This document shows, in pieces, positions 4,297-12,400 of a stretch of DNA of 44,778 nucleotides. A program made the position numbers and the translations under genes. The DNA comes from Candidatus Tectimicrobiota bacterium (GTDB lineage: Bacteria > JACPSX01), in the NCBI GenBank assembly GCA_016193065.1, contig JACPSX010000217.1, forward strand, positions 1-44,778, in the 5' to 3' direction. The notes below the pieces were generated by a model. That model was not told where the DNA came from. It saw only the letters and a program-made list of their open reading frames with translations, and did not search any database. The stretch's first letter is position 1, and each line of letters starts with the position of its first letter.

Positions 4297-4510
4297 TCAC
4301 AAGGAAAGCCCCAACGCGCCCCAGTACGGGACGGCAAGAAAGGCCACCACCAGAGCCGTCAGGACCAGCATCAGGAGCCCGACCTTGAGGACATCCCGGC
4401 CGCTGAAGTAGCCCGACCGGTAAGCCATGAAATTCGTGGCGGTTTGCAGCGGATAGAGGATGACCGCATCAACCGTAATCCCCACGACGAGCCCCAGGAC
4501 CAAAAGATCG
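4297..4510 (-). pseudogene. C-terminal fragment of an SLC13/DASS transporter
   Basis: About 70 codons encode VLGLVVGITVDAVILYPLQT, then a segment ending in VAFLAVPYWGALGLSL. This matches the last two helices of the intact SLC13 protein encoded at 7569-8975, with roughly four-fifths nucleotide similarity by eye. Upstream of about 4510 the reading frame continues into unrelated sequence (SFEAIVQEPRLVG), so the preceding 380 or so residues are missing. It is the 3' scrap of a diverged paralog, truncated where the mobile-DNA region begins, not a functional gene. Confidence 0.85.
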
Positions 4511-4522
4511 GTGCCGACAAGA

Positions 4523-4585
4523 CGGGGTTCTTGAACAATAGCTTCAAACGACCTTTCAGGTCGCCTCAATCCTTATGGGTTAGGC
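4523..4585 (-). repeat. Possible degenerate integron attC after the toxin gene
   Basis: On the minus strand a perfect R''-type box GCCTAAC (4579-4585) lies 38 bases after the ancestral toxin stop. It is followed by a short perfect stem CGACC/GGTCG, but the expected closing GTTRRRY box is not recognisable and arm complementarity is weak. It would make the toxin-antitoxin pair another integron cassette, in the same orientation as the other two. This is suggestive only. Confidence 0.3.
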
Positions 4586-4623
4586 GCGCCATGTAGTGAC
4601 CGAGTATCGATGCCGGTCAAACT

Positions 4624-4977
4624 TTACCGGGAGGGTTCTTGTTGAGCGGTGAGATACGCGCTCAGTGTATGCAATAAACGACGATGACGTTCCGAGGAAA
4701 TGCTCCCGATCGTGCCGGCGATTCACTGGCGAGGCACGACGGCCAGAAACCCCAACCGGAGAATCGAATCCGCGACCAATCCACTGGCGGCAAAATCCGC
4801 ATCCGTGGCAACAATCCGCTCATCAAAGCCATCTACGTATTGCTGGAGTTGCGTGCTGATCCCACAGACCAGTAAATCGTGATACCGCGGCATCTCCCGC
4901 AAGACCAGAGCTGGCCGGTGCTTCACCTGTCCGTGGGCTTGAGGGACCGGCGTGAGAATGATGTCAGCTTCCCGCAT
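4624..4977 (-). pseudogene. PemK/MazF-family toxin interrupted by an in-frame TGA
   Basis: The reading frame encodes a 117-codon type II toxin of the PemK/MazF endoribonuclease family (ADIILTPVPQAHGQVKHRPA, LLVCGISTQL, DADFAASGL, LRLGFLAVVPR). Translation stops at TGA 4723-4725 after 84 residues. Beyond it the same frame continues with family-like sequence IAGTIGSISSERHRRLL to a natural TAA at 4624. Homologs, from memory, tend to have a basic residue at that position, so a single CGA-to-TGA change would explain the stop. The start overlaps the antitoxin stop by 14 bases. An 84-residue product lacks the C-terminal helix and is probably inactive. Confidence 0.8.
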
Positions 4978-5206
4978 ACTCGGGATTCCGTTCTTTGAGG
5001 CAGTCTAGGGAATACTCCGGCTCATCTGGCCCATAGGCAGCGGCTAACCCGGCGGTCGCCAATGGCCACCAAGCGTCCTGTTCATCCTCAGCGGGGTGTT
5101 TCGGTAACACCGTGACGAGCAGTTTGGTATCCGGTTCCAACACATACGGTTCATCAAGCCGGATCTGCTCCCCATCAAAATGGGCGGGTAACGTAATCGC
5201 CTTCAT
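4964..5206 (-). CDS. Antitoxin partner of the PemK/MazF-type toxin
   Basis: An 80-residue acidic protein beginning MKAITLPAHFDGEQIRLDEP, a short beta-rich opening typical of small antitoxins paired with this class of PemK-like toxin. The remainder (LEPDTKLLVTVLPKH and an acidic tail) would wrap the toxin. ATG at 5206 has an AAGGAGA ribosome site; an ATG three codons upstream is also in frame. It overlaps the toxin gene by 14 bases, the usual antitoxin-first arrangement. With the toxin prematurely terminated, this gene may persist only as an orphan antitoxin. Assignment rests on order and size plus the recognised partner. Confidence 0.7.
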   Translation of the reverse strand: MKAITLPAHFDGEQIRLDEPYVLEPDTKLLVTVLPKHPAEDEQDAWWPLATAGLAAAYGPDEPEYSLDCLKERNPEYAGS

Positions 5207-5397
5207 GAGTATCATCTCCTTCTTGTCTTGGACAGGCTTACTCCCCCTCATTCGCTTCTTAATCTATCTACACTTCTGAGCATCTTCGTGCAACGATATT
5301 TCGCACTGGTGCCGTTTCAACTATTTTCTGCTACGTTCCCGGCTCACATGGTCCATACTTTCTTACCGGGCAGGCCGTTAAAATTAGCCGGATTAAG

Positions 5398-5597
5398 TTG
5401 GAACGGTACGGGTACGAGCAATCGATGAAGGCCCTGCCACTGAACGGACTCGGGGCGCGGACCCAGGAGTGCACCACCCGCGCCGTGCGCATGCTGTGCG
5501 ACTTCTACGGCAAGAGCCCGGACCTCGTTCGACATCCTGCGCGTCCAGCGGGAGAAAAGACTGCCGGCCGTGCTCAGCACGCAGCAGGTGCGGTGCC
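5398..5597 (+). pseudogene. Tyrosine recombinase remnant (core-binding domain plus start of catalytic domain)
   Basis: The first piece (5398 to about 5525) encodes YEQSMKALPLNGLGARTQEC and then RAVRMLCDFYGKSPDLV, the SAM-like core-binding domain of a tyrosine recombinase/integrase. The frame then shifts by one and the second piece (about 5526-5597) encodes FDILRVQREKRLPAVLSTQQ, the linker into the catalytic domain of the same family. About 40-50 residues between them and everything after the second piece are absent. No catalytic Arg-His-Arg-Tyr residues survive, so it is a deletion scar. Confidence 0.75.
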
Positions 5598-5690
5598 GTT
5601 CACGGAAGTCGCCCGACGGTTCAACCGGGACGTCTCAACGCTGAGTCGGGCCGTGGGAGCATTACAGCGCATCGCGAGCGCAGGCGGGCC
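5595..5690 (+). pseudogene. C-terminal HTH scrap resembling REP-associated transposase (RAYT)
   Basis: Directly after the recombinase remnant one frame encodes FTEVARRFNRDVSTLSRAVG and a few more residues. This helix-turn-helix resembles the C-terminus of TnpA_REP/RAYT-like transposases (EVAR-FNR---TLS pattern). Only about 30 codons survive before the sequence passes into a CAGGC-rich repeat. The joining to the recombinase piece is probably the result of deletions between neighbouring mobile genes. Confidence 0.5.
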
Positions 5691-5762
5691 TGTCTGCGTG
5701 TCCCCGCCTGCGTTTCCGCGCGGGCAGGCGCGCGGGCAGGCGCACAGGCAGGCCAGAGGCGA
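5690..5762. repeat. CAGGC-rich interspersed repeat, copy 1
   Basis: A run of alternating CAGGC/GCCTG and GCGCG units that can fold into several small hairpins. A longer relative with the same building blocks lies at 12478-12592. It follows the RAYT-like scrap, which may be significant since RAYT proteins act on palindromic repeats. It has no coding content. Confidence 0.6.
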
Positions 5763-5834
5763 AACCATTGTTCAAACACCAAAAAGCAATTATGCAAGCC
5801 TGACCCTTTCTCCCATTTGACCCCATCTCCTAGC

Positions 5835-5866
5835 TTTTTGGGGTCCGGTTGATTGACCAGTTAGGC
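5835..5866 (-). repeat. Truncated attC half-site after the DUF2971 cassette
   Basis: On the minus strand a perfect R''-type box GCCTAAC (5860-5866) overlaps the TAA stop of the DUF2971 frame, the same geometry as in the complete attC at 6669-6759. After about 25 bases the sequence changes to a GGGGTC-containing segment with no closing GTTRRRY box. It looks like the 5' half of an attC whose other half was lost. Confidence 0.45.
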
Positions 5867-6651
5867 TTTGAACTGGCTAATGGATACTTCATCAACAATC
5901 AGGGACAATTTGGTTGGATTTGGTGATGCTCGGTATAGCTTAATGGAGTGTCCCCGTTCTTCAATCCAGCCCAAGACCTTGGCGACGGCCTGCGGTGGTA
6001 TCTGTGCACCAAGAATTATTCCCGTGAGGGCTTCGGGAGGGTACCTATAAACGCCTGGGCCATTGACGTGCTCAAGAATGCGCCACTCTTCTTCGTACTT
6101 CCAATGGCTGGCTTTAGTAAGCACCGCTTTATCCACCATCTGGTCTCGCGAGTCTCGGTAGGGATTAATCTGAGGCCTCACATCGGTTTCGGGGTAGTTG
6201 ACTTCTAGGGCGCGCGCGAAAAACTTAAAATAGCCGTCAAACTCAAGACATAGACCCCTATGAGAGTCCGCGTAATGTGACCACATCAAGATGTCGTACT
6301 TCCTGGCCGATAGGCAGAGGACACCTACATGTTCAGTAATGAGCTCAGTTAGCGAGTCCTGAATGCGTTTTTGCGTCTCGGGGGTTTCCCAGTCGTTCAG
6401 TGTGTTCCTGGCTTCACGTCTTCGCTGTTCCCGATTCAGATTTGGCAGCTGCTTCTTTGAGCGATCTTTTAAGTCGCCTTCTCTTCATTCGATGCCTCAA
6501 ATGAGAAAGAGGGGCGGCAATCGAAAGGGTCGTTGAACGAAGATGGCTTTGGAAAGTAAAGTTCGTTGTGACAAACCGTCCTTTCAACATATTCGCTGAA
6601 CTCTCCGCTTAGCTTTCTGTACCGATAAAAATGTGTCGGACACTTGTCCAC
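5861..6651 (-). pseudogene. DUF2971 protein gene with one frameshift (integron cassette)
   Basis: The N-terminal part (GTG at 6651: CPTHFYRYRKLSG, then LYFPKPSSFNDPFDCR) and the C-terminal part (CLSARKYDILMWSHYADSHR, then LCLEFDG, and on to stop 5861) are the two halves of a DUF2971 protein of about 260 residues. They lie in different frames. The shift falls between about 6470 and 6490, because each frame has a stop just outside that interval, so a single small indel explains the break. DUF2971 proteins are of unknown biochemical role and are common in integron cassettes and defence-rich islands. A GAGAGGG ribosome site precedes the GTG, only 12 bases after the upstream attC box. Confidence 0.8.
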
Positions 6652-6668
6652 CGAAAAGCCCTCTCGAA

Positions 6669-6759
6669 ACCTAACGCCGCGGCTCAGATGCCGCCGACCA
6701 ACGCGAGGGCACAAAGGTGCATCGCACCTTTGCGGTCGTTCTGCAGCCGCTCGTTATGT
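6669..6759 (-). repeat. Integron attC recombination site
   Basis: A 91-base imperfect palindrome with all attC hallmarks. On the minus strand it starts with ACATAAC (R''-like) and ends with GTTAGGT, a perfect GTTRRRY recombination box. Inside are complementary L boxes (GCGGCT/AGCCGC), a second paired block (CAGA/TCTG and CGACC/GGTCG), and a perfect 9-base terminal stem CAAAGGTGC/GCACCTTTG with a 3-base loop. The stop codon of the upstream membrane-protein gene lies inside the first box, and the DUF2971 gene starts just after the last, as in a cassette array. Confidence 0.85.
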
Positions 6760-7104
6760 GGCGCTTGGCATGAGCTTGAACATGAAGTACGCGCATACAG
6801 GCCATCCTACGAATGCCGAGAGACTTAGTGCCAACGCACCTACAACGCGTTCAAGCATAAATCCGATGACGGAGCTTATGAGACCTATAACGAAGATTAC
6901 AAACGGAGCCCACCACGCAACAGACCAGCCGTAGTAGATAAGATATCCGAACCCAGTAAGCATCCCAAGCAAAGCGGAAATGCTCAAAGCAAAACCGAAC
7001 GCCTGGCTTGCACCTTGAAAGTGCTTGGTGTGTAGTTGCTGGTAAAAAACGAAGGTTGAAAACGCGCAGTAGAATGCGATCGATGTCCACGACAAGACAG
7101 GCAT
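6754..7104 (-). CDS. Small multi-spanning membrane protein (integron cassette)
   Basis: A 116-residue protein that I do not recognise. It has four predicted hydrophobic helices (about residues 5-22, 33-55, 62-80 and 86-108), with aromatic-rich loops (GYLIYYGWSVAWWAPF) and a short, nearly uncharged C-terminus. Its stop codon is embedded in the first box of the attC at 6669-6759, and it starts about 175 bases from the integrase remnant. This marks it as the first cassette of the array. Composition is less GC-rich than the flanking chromosomal genes, consistent with transfer. Function unknown. Confidence 0.7.
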   Translation of the reverse strand: MPVLSWTSIAFYCAFSTFVFYQQLHTKHFQGASQAFGFALSISALLGMLTGFGYLIYYGWSVAWWAPFVIFVIGLISSVIGFMLERVVGALALSLSAFVGWPVCAYFMFKLMPSAT

Positions 7105-7279
7105 GGCTATTTCCTATTTCCCCGCTTGCGACACAACTACTGAGCATACTGGTCAGCATAGCACGGTTGCTGACACTTCCCACAACAGCCACGATTCTCT
7201 TTCCTTTCCAAGAAGTTGTCAAGACATCATACCCTCCCCCACGGCGGGAAAGCACTGCCCCATGGATGGCATATTCCAC

Positions 7280-7522
7280 TTATGGCTGCCAGAGACTCGC
7301 CAACTCCGCCAGTCCGTCTGCCGGACTACGAACCCCTCTCCCTTCTCGATTCAAGACGTGTATGTAGATCATCGTCGTGGTCATGTCCCGGTGATTCAGC
7401 AGCTCCTGAACGGTCCTGATGTCGTACCTGTCTTCCAAGAGATTGGTAGCGAATGGGGGCCGTAGTGTATCGTCCTCATGCTGTCGTCTGACCGCCTGGA
7501 TGTGCCTCAGAAGAGCCTCCTT
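7280..7522 (-). pseudogene. Integron integrase (IntI) remnant, internally deleted
   Basis: The minus strand encodes [16 protein letters not shown], typical of the IntI region before the catalytic patch. This is joined directly to [38 protein letters not shown] and [13 protein letters not shown], then TAA. This is the end of an integron integrase with the nucleophile Tyr (MIYIHV). About 80-90 residues between the two pieces, including the catalytic Arg-His motifs, are missing, and everything upstream is lost at a stop at 7523. It lies on the same strand as the cassettes, with its 3' end facing them, unlike classical integrons. Confidence 0.85.
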
Positions 7523-7568: not shown

Positions 7569-8975
7569 CTACAAGGCCAGGCCCAGAGCCCGCCAGTATG
7601 GGACGGCCAGGAAAGCCACCACCAGAGCCGTGAGAATCAGCATCAGGACCCCGACCTTGAAGACATCCCAGGCACTAAAGTATCCCAACTGGTATGCCAT
7701 GAGATTCGTAGTGGTCTGCAGCGGGTAGAGGATCACCGCATCTACCGAGATTCCCACGATGAGTCCCAAAACCACCGGGTTTAGCCCGAGAGTGCGGCCA
7801 AACGTCGCCGCCACAGGGATCAGTAAGGAAATACAGGCGGTCATGTTCGTAATGGTCAGGTGCACCACACTCACCAGGACCACCAGGAAAACCAGGATCC
7901 ACTCTGGTGCCAGGACCCTGGCAGAGAGGGCCAGGATCGCCTCCCGCGCAAACCACTGCGCTGCACCGCTGGCAGCCAATGCCTGGGCCAGTGTTAAAGA
8001 AACCCCTAGCACAAGGAACATGGACCACGACGCAGATTCCTCGAAATCCTTCCAGCCCAAGATGCCTAGATACGGCAACAGCAAGACGGCAGCCGCCAGC
8101 AGCGCCGGGATCACCGGATTCAAGCCGTGCCAAAAGTCGGTCAGCCAAAGAAGCGAGGTCACTCCCACGATCACGAGGACTTTGCCCTCAGTTAAGGAGA
8201 GGGGGCCTGCGCCAGCCGGGGTTTCCGGATTCCCATAAGGGGCAATCACTTTCTGCCTGTATAGGAAAGCAATAAGCCCACCGCCCAGGGCCAGCAGAGT
8301 CCAGTAGGGAAGCGCCATCAGGACAAACCAGCGCAGCCAGGAAAATCCGCCCAGGAGGGTGGCCGTCGTCATGGAGTTGATTCCACCGGTCAGCAGAGCT
8401 GAGGAGGCCAGTGGATGCAAAACACCGAGAGAGAGAAGAATGCCGCGGGGTAAAGGATCGCCGTGGGCCAGACCCAAACGCCGGAATCCTTTCTCGTAGG
8501 CGGGGATCAGGATCGCATTGCGTGTGATCGCCGAGGGCAGGACAAGGGCGAGGAAGGGCATGGACAGGAACAGCTTAAGGTATAGCCGGCCGGAGTGACC
8601 CATCCCACCTCGAATGAGCCAGCCTGCCATCCGGTCGGCAAGTCCGCTCTTCCTCACGGCCTGGCTCATGACCAAGATCGCAAGGAGAAAATACGGAAGA
8701 GGAGAAGCGAAACCGGCGAAGAGATCCGCCGTTGAGCCTACCCCCTGAACCACTGCGAGGAAGACAAGAGCCAGAATGGAACTCAAGGCAACCGGCAAGG
8801 CTTCGGTGGCCCACAGGAGAACCACCATGATTACGACCGCTATAACCCGCTGCCCGGAGGCAGAGAGTCCAGAAGGTCGTGGAAGGATCAAGAGGAGGAT
8901 GAAGAAGGCCAATGCTCCCAGAAGAAAACCCAGGGAACGGCGGTTGGAGAACTTCTCCTTCCGGCTTAGTTCCAT
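7569..8975 (-). CDS. SLC13/DASS-family anion (dicarboxylate/sulfate-type) transporter
   Basis: A 468-residue inner-membrane symporter. It has about a dozen hydrophobic helices, the repeated hairpin regions (SMPFLALVLPSAITRNAILI and TITNMTACISLLIPVAATFG) and the C-terminal VDAVILYPLQTTTNLMAY segment of divalent-anion:sodium symporters. The exact substrate cannot be assigned. The open frame extends to 9065, but that start would be a TTG inside a REP-like repeat. ATG at 8975 (MELSRKEKF) gives the normal cytoplasmic N-terminus and length, though without a clear ribosome site. A truncated diverged paralog of its 3' end lies at 4297-4510, across the integron remnant. Confidence 0.88.
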   Translation of the reverse strand: MELSRKEKFSNRRSLGFLLGALAFFILLLILPRPSGLSASGQRVIAVVIMVVLLWATEALPVALSSILALVFLAVVQGVGSTADLFAGFASPLPYFLLAILVMSQAVRKSGLADRMAGWLIRGGMGHSGRLYLKLFLSMPFLALVLPSAITRNAILIPAYEKGFRRLGLAHGDPLPRGILLSLGVLHPLASSALLTGGINSMTTATLLGGFSWLRWFVLMALPYWTLLALGGGLIAFLYRQKVIAPYGNPETPAGAGPLSLTEGKVLVIVGVTSLLWLTDFWHGLNPVIPALLAAAVLLLPYLGILGWKDFEESASWSMFLVLGVSLTLAQALAASGAAQWFAREAILALSARVLAPEWILVFLVVLVSVVHLTITNMTACISLLIPVAATFGRTLGLNPVVLGLIVGISVDAVILYPLQTTTNLMAYQLGYFSAWDVFKVGVLMLILTALVVAFLAVPYWRALGLAL

Positions 8976-9044
8976 AGAGCGCGCTCGCGCGAATCGGGCC
9001 CGGGGAAGCAGATCACGGCGTCCCTCTAGCAGGATAGTGAAAAA

Positions 9045-9160
9045 GTCTTTTTCGTGGTTCGACAAGTCTCACCACGAACGGAAAATCATCAGCAATTTCA
9101 AGAGTTCCTCCGTTCGCCCTCACCCAGAAGCCGGGTACCCGGTCGAAGGGTGAATGGAGG
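9045..9160. repeat. REP-like interspersed repeat, copy A
   Basis: Two palindromic modules, one with GGTTCGACAAG and CACCACGAACGG, the other CCGTTCGCCCT...TCGAAGGG. The second is interrupted by a KpnI-like palindrome CCGGGTACCCGG. The same modules recur at 18405-18495 and 35372-35492. The upstream extension of the SLC13 reading frame runs into this repeat. Confidence 0.7.
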
Positions 9161-10387: not shown

Positions 10388-11395
10388 TTAAAGAGAGACC
10401 TCCCGTAAATATCGCGCCGCTTCTTCCGGAAGAACCGGGTTAATAAAAAAGCCAGTCCCCCACTCAAAACCCGCCACTCGGGTCAACGTAGGCATGATCT
10501 CAAAATGCCAGTGGTAGTAATCACAGGTCTGGGGATAGCGATCGTCAAAGGCAGCGGTGTGCATGATAAGGTTGTAAGGATGGGAGCCCAAAACCTTTTC
10601 GAGACGCCTGAGAACGGCTGAGAACGTCCTGGCCAAATCTTCCAGATCCAGGGCGGTGGCATCCTCATAACCGCACAGATGTTTTCTGGGCATGATCCAT
10701 ACCTCGAAGGGAAATCGTGAGGCATAAGGAGTAAATGCTGCGGTGGCGGGCCGGTTCTCGATGATACGGCTTTCCTGCTCAAGCTCCTGCTCCAGGATGT
10801 CGCAAAAGATGCAGCGATCGTGGTAGTCGAAGAAATTCTTACAGCCGTATAGTTCCAGGGCCACAGTTTGTGGAATGATCGGGAGGGCAATAATCTGGGA
10901 GTGAGAGTGCTCCAGGGAAGCTCCCGCCGCCTCTCCATGGTTCTTGAAGATCAAAGTATAGCGCAGGCGGGGATCTTTCTTCAGGTCTACCAGACGCTCC
11001 CGGTATGACCAGAGGACGTCACGGATCGTCGACTCCGAGGCCTGGGAAAGATTGAGATCATGGCGGGGTGTCTCAATGATCACCTCGTGGGCCCCGACCC
11101 CGTTCATCCGGTCGTAGACCCCGATCCCGCTGCGATCCAGGTTCCCCTCGATCCTCAAAGCTGGAAACTTATTCGGTATCACCCGGAGGGTCCAGCCTGG
11201 AGTGTCGGGGGGGGAACCAGGCGGCCGGTAAGCGAGAATCTCCGGCGGCGTCATGGACTCATTTCCGGGGCAAAAGGGGCAGGTTCCTCGCTGGGGTGCA
11301 GGCGCCTGGATCTTAAAATCCTTGGGCCGGGCCGCCCGCTCCGTGGAAATGATGACCCAGCGGCCTAGAATCGGATCCTTCCTGAGCTCAGGCAT
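10388..11395 (-). CDS. galT: Galactose-1-phosphate uridylyltransferase family protein 1
   Basis: A 335-residue GalT-fold nucleotidyltransferase with both halves of the family. The N-terminal zinc motif is CPFCPG (Cys39, Cys42). The nucleophile motif is HSHSQ (His165, Gln167), the HxHxQ form of transferases. The second half has CIFCDI and HWHFEIMP. GalT exchanges UMP between UDP-glucose and galactose-1-phosphate. In this glucan context a relaxed sugar-nucleotide specificity, as in ADP-glucose phosphorylase relatives, is equally possible. Start ATG at 11395 has a GAGG ribosome site. A paralog lies 30 bases upstream in the same direction. Confidence 0.88.
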   Translation of the reverse strand: MPELRKDPILGRWVIISTERAARPKDFKIQAPAPQRGTCPFCPGNESMTPPEILAYRPPGSPPDTPGWTLRVIPNKFPALRIEGNLDRSGIGVYDRMNGVGAHEVIIETPRHDLNLSQASESTIRDVLWSYRERLVDLKKDPRLRYTLIFKNHGEAAGASLEHSHSQIIALPIIPQTVALELYGCKNFFDYHDRCIFCDILEQELEQESRIIENRPATAAFTPYASRFPFEVWIMPRKHLCGYEDATALDLEDLARTFSAVLRRLEKVLGSHPYNLIMHTAAFDDRYPQTCDYYHWHFEIMPTLTRVAGFEWGTGFFINPVLPEEAARYLREVSL

Positions 11396-11425
11396 GAAGA
11401 GTCCTCGCCGGCAGCCGGCGCAAAT

Positions 11426-12400
11426 TCAATCGCCTACCTTTTCACACGCTGCTTTCAGTTGAGCCGCTGCCTCTTCCGGAGGGATGGAGTGGATGAAGAG
11501 CCCCGTGGCCCACTCAAACCCGTGCACTACCTCCACCCGCGGCCGCACTTCAAAATGCCAGTGGTACTGGGGCCGGTACTGCTCCTGCAAGGGCGAGGAG
11601 TGCAGGGCTAGGCTGTAATGGGGGTCATTGAGAGCAACGCGGATGCACGAAAACACCTGGCGCATGACCTTGGCAAGGTCGGCAATCTCGGCGTCGCTGA
11701 TCTGGCCGAAATCGCAGGAGTGCTTCTTCGGAAGAATCCAGGTCTCATACGGGTAGCGGGATGCAAAAGGGACAAAAGAGGCAAAGAGGTCCGTCTCCGC
11801 GATCATCCGCTCCTTCCGGCTGCTTTCCTGTCCGATGATGTCGCAGTAGATGCAGCGATCGTGGAACTGGGAATAGTTGAATGTCCCCTTCAGCTCCTCA
11901 TCTATGCGGCGGGGCACAATGGGGAGAGCCACAATGTGGGAGTGAGGATGGGGGAGGGCGGTGACATTCGGCCCGTGGTTCTTGACGATCACGATGTGCT
12001 TGAAGCGAGTATCCCGCCGCAGGTCCAGCATCCGCGCCCGGTAGGCATTGAGGACCCCTGCGAGTTGGGAGATCTCCATGGTGGCAAAGTGCTGGACATG
12101 TTCCGGGGTTTCGATGACGATCTCGTGGGCTCCCACCCCGTTCATCCGGTCGTAAAGCCCGTAGGCCCGCTTGGCCGGCTCCTCCTCGATGCGCAAAAAA
12201 GGGTATTTGTTGGGAACGACCCGAACCGTCCACCCCGGGGTGTCGCGTCTGGTGGAGTCCGGCCGGATGGCGAAGACTTCGGGAGGGGTCTCGGACTCGC
12301 TGCCGGGACAAAAGGGACACCTCTCCAGTGGTCGAGGTTGGTGATCCTTCATGACCACGACCCAGCGTTGGAGAACCGGTTCTTTCCTGAGCTCAGACAA
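11426..12400 (-). CDS. GalT-like protein 2 with HIT-type HxHxH motif
   Basis: A 324-residue paralog of the neighbouring GalT, with CPFCPGSESETPPE near the N-terminus (Cys28, Cys31), NGVGAHEIVIETPEH, a second CIYCDI motif and HWHFEVRP. The active-site triad reads HPHSHIVALP (His151, His153, His155), so Gln is replaced by His. Classical GalT has HxHxQ, whereas HxHxH is typical of HIT hydrolases. A sugar-nucleotide hydrolase or phosphorylase role is therefore plausible. Translation starts at TTG 12400 behind a GGAGGGGAGG ribosome site. It forms a tandem pair with GalT 1 and probably an operon with it. Confidence 0.85.
   Translation of the reverse strand: MSELRKEPVLQRWVVVMKDHQPRPLERCPFCPGSESETPPEVFAIRPDSTRRDTPGWTVRVVPNKYPFLRIEEEPAKRAYGLYDRMNGVGAHEIVIETPEHVQHFATMEISQLAGVLNAYRARMLDLRRDTRFKHIVIVKNHGPNVTALPHPHSHIVALPIVPRRIDEELKGTFNYSQFHDRCIYCDIIGQESSRKERMIAETDLFASFVPFASRYPYETWILPKKHSCDFGQISDAEIADLAKVMRQVFSCIRVALNDPHYSLALHSSPLQEQYRPQYHWHFEVRPRVEVVHGFEWATGLFIHSIPPEEAAAQLKAACEKVGD

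Follow-up and report, generated by a model that had tools for sequence, protein, structure and literature searches.

The window analyzed here is the complete 44,778-nucleotide contig JACPSX010000217.1 of a Candidatus Tectimicrobiota bacterium (contig C131 in our numbering), part of a 2.9-Mb assembly of 294 contigs that is 86% complete with an estimated contamination of 0.95%. Approximately 3 kb of integron debris lie on its minus strand, between two copies of a DASS-family anion transporter gene, one complete and the other truncated. Read along the minus strand, the debris consists of a remnant of the integron integrase gene intI, a Pc-like promoter, an attI site, a membrane-protein cassette, an attC site, a DUF2971 cassette followed by half an attC, a broken toxin-antitoxin pair, and an array-end motif. 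We consider this locus, with a probability of about 93%, to be what remains of a reverse (inverted-integrase) chromosomal integron, now dead and shrunken, i.e. of an integron with intI on the strand of its cassettes and both attI and the array 3' of intI. The original prediction, made from the sequence, had recognized a decayed integron with this unusual strand layout and had left open whether it was a relic of an inverted integron or the product of rearrangement; the truncated DASS copy, attI, the Pc-like promoter, the transposase-like debris and the premature stop in the toxin gene were all absent from it.

Integrase remnant, attI and attC

The intI remnant lies in an open frame at 7280-7522 on the minus strand and matches the integron integrase family TIGR02249 (1.8e-19). 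An 80-residue integrase remnant had been proposed for this interval; the frame and its identity as IntI stand, and the homologous part is limited to 7310-7486. In a profile comparison the scrap scores 70.2 bits against TIGR02249 (model positions 259-315) versus 44.8 bits for XerD and 44.4 bits for XerC. The surviving part corresponds to the last ~57 residues of the protein, the 5' four fifths of the gene being deleted, and this C-terminal remnant is not a functional gene.

Downstream of the remnant, attI was identified at 7130-7164 (minus strand) with the crossover between 7137 and 7136; its sequence is GTGCTATGCTGACCAGTATGCTCAGTAG|TTGTGTC, also given as GCTATGCTGACCAGTATGCTCAGTAG|TTGTGTC. A core, CTCAATAG or CTTAATAG followed by TT, is conserved ~120-220 bases past the intI stop at seven related loci of the reverse clade (L059, L061, L062, L065, L113, L120 and L121). 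By our own pattern scan, seven loci were matched downstream of intI and none upstream, shuffled sequences giving a match in 0.14% per locus. Two further attI copies are located on contig C73 of the same genome (at ~987 and ~4699, hereafter C73a and C73b). The three copies are alike at 38-40 of 46 positions up to the crossover and diverge beyond it, sharing 6 of the next 30 bases (window and C73a), 9 of 30 (C73a and C73b) and 15 of 30 (window and C73b); the likeness of the last pair drops to 0-2 of 8 beyond ~32 bases past the crossover. Such a pattern is expected if cassettes of different kinds were inserted at a single position. In the window attI, the R box has drifted to GTTGTGT.

A predicted Pc-like promoter, TTGACA-17-GAGAAT (7194-7222, minus strand; 10 of 12 positions in a consensus scan), lies between intI and attI and reads into the cassettes. 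Promoter-like counterparts occupy the matching place on C73 (TTGATA) and at L059, L062 and L065. The second copy of this promoter-attI unit on C73 (L142:3829-4788) has no recognizable intI and is followed by an open reading frame (ORF) of 283 codons without a Pfam match. Five other contigs that carry an integrase of the reverse clade (L058, L066, L090, L101 and L106) end 120-220 bases past the intI stop, near attI. Assemblies thus seem to break where the array begins, and reverse arrays may be under-counted in draft genomes.

The first cassette (6754-7104, minus strand) holds an intact ORF for a 116-residue membrane protein with no confident family assignment, and its stop codon falls within the R'' box of the complete attC (6669-6759, minus strand; R'' ACATAAC, R' GTTAGGT). 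As single-stranded DNA, this attC folds at -26.9 kcal/mol (z -3.5). Its left arm has a 5-nt spacer and an extrahelical base, its right arm a 6-nt spacer, and this asymmetry fixes the strand as minus. Because a symmetric scan cannot tell the strand, all attC counts reported here rest on a home-made orientation-specific scan, and counting in the genome covered the contigs with IntI or array-end hits. In the 44.8 kb of the window the scan returned 6669-6759 as the sole attC; 2 of 40 shuffled windows gave any hit.

The same-strand layout in other relics and across IntI loci

Pieces of IntI were found on about ten contigs of the genome, including the present 44.8-kb contig with its ordinary metabolic genes, and none of the pieces found represents an intact intI. 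The piece on C273 (L052:1801-1887), which has one in-frame stop, covers the extra domain specific to IntI, and thereby marks the scraps of this genome as true IntI. At least three further relics repeat the arrangement of the window, with intI on the cassette strand and followed by its array. On the minus strand of contig C49 there are intI pieces, an ORF for a membrane protein and an attC (C49:833-907); the plus strand of C188 holds intI, attI, an FRG-domain ORF and an attC (C188:2140-2217); and the minus strand of C73 holds intI, attI and an ORF together with the array-end motif. At DNA level, the intI end of C49 is only 75% identical to that of the window over 91 bp, so the two are not copies of one accident. 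At least two types of attI occur in this one genome.

Several of these relics show peculiarities of their own. A repeat-like insert has replaced the middle of intI on C49, between the N- and C-terminal pieces (L044:1880-2215). On C188, the intI remnant is split by an insert with short inverted-repeat ends and an ORF on the other strand (L045:204-954), and the FRG-domain cassette (L045:1319-2110) matches the candidate phage-defence family PDC-S15.

The relation between intI orientation and array side was assessed in 80 IntI loci from named public genomes by the oriented attC scan. All 39 attC sites found downstream of intI are on the intI strand, all 38 found upstream are on the opposite strand, and no locus of mixed orientation occurs among the 80. 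The attC sites assign a reverse orientation to 16 loci and a classical one to 12. A tree of fuller IntI sequences (63 rows), which replaced a poorly resolved tree of short rows, separates the reverse from the classical integrases with a single change of orientation (support 84/87); this result concerns 23 labelled rows, 12 reverse and 11 classical, picked by similarity to the query, and none of 500 label shuffles gave a count as low. The pieces from the present genome sit in a set of 27 rows (97/89) with nine reverse and zero classical members, a placement that comes mostly from the weight of the C49 pieces. The scrap does not fall outside the IntI clade, and it fits TIGR02249 better than the Xer models. 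Relatives with the reverse layout belong to several phyla, and the closest IntI and attI sequences come from e.g. Methylomirabilota, Nitrospirota and Myxococcota. Since orientation switches a single time in the tree, the reverse arrangement appears to be a deep-rooted character common to several phyla.

Decay of the array and its surroundings

Beyond the complete attC, the array is degraded. The second cassette (5861-6714, minus strand) encodes a DUF2971 protein with one frameshift (PF11185, 1.1e-8 on the C-terminal part; PADLOC PDC-S31, 4.5e-30). The PDC-S31 match, to a candidate phage-defence family, concerns the part of the cassette at 5861-6289. The stop of this gene is overlapped by an R'' box, GCCTAAC (5860-5866, minus strand), the half site of a lost attC. 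Transposase-like debris follows on the plus strand (5398-5820; weak HTH_38 match), and pieces of it recur on C48 and C188. Next on the minus strand come a putative antitoxin ORF without a family match (4964-5251) and, downstream of it and overlapping, a MazF/PemK-type toxin gene (4723-4977; PF02452) with an in-frame premature stop that removes the C-terminus. The minus-strand succession of a complete attC, a DUF2971 cassette interrupted by a frameshift and followed by a half attC, and a toxin-antitoxin pair had been read correctly from the sequence, as the scan and fold and the two Pfam matches confirm. Cassettes ended by attC are represented by one complete and one half site. The locus lies outside the definition of a cluster of attC sites lacking integrases (CALIN; at least two attC sites with no intI nearby), since it holds a single complete attC that is collinear with an intI remnant.

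An R''-like box had also been noted past the toxin-antitoxin pair. It is present at 4579-4585 and forms the edge of an array-end motif of ~80 bp (4503-4585, minus strand) that includes a hairpin and the bases following it and is common to C73 (89% identity to C73:3-83) and C206 (72% to C206:3972-4042). The motif stands after the first cassette ORF on C73 and after an ankyrin-protein gene on C206. Part of an attC was considered for the box and rejected, as the oriented scan does not accept the site; a terminator was considered for the hairpin, which has no T-run. We take the motif as the far end of the array. Past it on C206 (L143:4005-4090), TTGGCACGATCTCTGCTA resembles a sigma-54 promoter, a diverged version of which occurs in the window and on C73.

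On one side the relic is flanked by the complete DASS gene (7569-9065, minus strand; TIGR00785, 4.6e-44), and on the other it adjoins what is left of a second DASS gene, a 3' fragment (4299-4502, minus strand) that shares 81% identity over 204 bp with the terminal part of the complete gene. After the DASS gene region, two tandem GalT-like genes, 45% identical to each other, are found at 10388-12400. An Rfam search of the window gave no match.

Origin of the layout and relation to known integrons

The same-strand layout of this locus is native and not the result of a recent inversion. This follows from four observations: the same layout recurs on C49, C188 and C73 with different cassettes; intI and the first cassette are separated by attI; array position and attC strand agree without exception in the 80-locus scan; and the IntI tree has one orientation change, with the pieces of this genome on its reverse side. 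The copy in the window is dead, as intI has lost its 5' four fifths, attI has a drifted R box, only half of the second attC is left and two genes are disrupted, and it therefore bears on history rather than on a working system. In the living ancestor, IntI would have been transcribed towards attI; following the established integron mechanism, the integrase would have paired attC, folded as a single strand, with attI and joined each cassette there at G|TT, immediately 3' of intI. A promoter between intI and attI would have driven the cassettes, so that integrase gene, promoter and cassettes were all read one way. Layout, attI, attC and tree position are seen directly in the sequences, whereas we infer recombination and promoter activity from the integron family. 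In the window copy, a deletion has taken the 5' part of intI, and the frameshift, the nonsense mutation, the loss of half an attC and the transposase debris have degraded the array.

Some points weigh against this interpretation. The split between reverse and classical integrases has moderate support; the window scrap (~55 residues) is long-branched, and its placement leans on the C49 pieces; the window and C73b are still alike at half of the first 30 bases past the crossover, which makes this pair less clear-cut; and the assembly is a draft bin in which single contigs could be foreign. The last point leads to another explanation, that a recently mobilised integron was binned in as fragments of a foreign contig, the host phylum never having had reverse integrons. 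The 294 contigs of the bin would suit it, as would the nearest IntI and attI sequences, which come from other phyla. We find it improbable, since the IntI pieces are spread over so many contigs, one of them 44.8 kb long with ordinary metabolic genes, and the estimated contamination is below 1%; moreover, it touches the ownership of the element and not its nature. A search for further genomes of the same phylum, within the genome set used here, returned only the genome itself, and so no sister locus with an empty or intact site.

Still less credible, to the point of being very nearly dismissed, is the view that the integron was classical and that a local rearrangement inverted or relocated its intI end to lie beside the array, leaving the same-strand layout accidental. 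The locus has clearly been rearranged, as is evident from the truncated intI, the truncated DASS copy and the transposase debris. The independent relics elsewhere in the genome nevertheless keep the same layout, attI is found between intI and the first cassette, and loci of this IntI clade are as a rule of the reverse type. A recent joining of integrase and cassettes by inversion is not seen among the relatives, which share the reverse layout across several phyla. Of the two origins left open by the original prediction, rearrangement is accordingly disfavoured, and the other, in which the locus is left over from an inverted chromosomal integron of a poorly sampled phylum, is supported by the side of the tree, the other relics, the relatives in several phyla and the position of attI 3' of intI. 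A different question is whether an intact IntI, encoded in the 14% of the genome missing from the assembly, could still mobilise the array in trans. One attC folds well, the first cassette ORF is intact and the assembly is incomplete, yet every IntI piece found in the genome is broken, the second attC is halved and the R box of attI has drifted, and we judge such mobility unlikely.

The dead reverse integron described here extends the reverse type to a lineage represented here by one genome, and shows that the unusual orientation at such a degraded site was inherited, not scrambled. The agreement of intI orientation, array side and attC strand without exception in the 80-locus set is a more general by-product. 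With the attI sequences of this group, tools designed around a divergent intI could be helped to recognize reverse integrons. More tentatively, and with more doubt than confidence, we propose that the lineage once had several reverse integron platforms, with at least two attI types, some with the ~80-bp end motif and all now dead. The motif might then have served the platform as a functional element marking a fixed distal boundary, of a kind not so far described for integrons.

The reverse design itself has been described before and is rarer than the classical one. Reverse integrons are known from Treponema chromosomes (PMC3607928, PMC7691350), and inverted IntIs were reported as a sub-clade of IntI (PMC8352920) and as one of three IntI groups (PMC10500605), with further hosts listed in PMC6557892; reference sequences of the inverted group come from Treponema, Blastopirellula and Chlorobium. 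The locus probably belongs to this known inverted integrase group, and the present tree reproduces the reverse layout as a sub-clade trait. Pseudogenes are common among intI genes (about one third), and about 20% of the bearers have two or more intI copies in their genome (PMC2426708). The locus resembles such pseudo-integrons in its decayed intI and differs from them in its setting, a single genome with about ten scraps and two or more attI types, in which no intact copy was found; the number of scraps, the two attI types and the shared array-end motif are the less usual features here. With the Treponema integrons it shares the stop codon of the first cassette placed within the R'' box, whereas those are intact, have long arrays and belong to Spirochaetota, and the array in the window is short, dead and found in another, nearly unsampled phylum.
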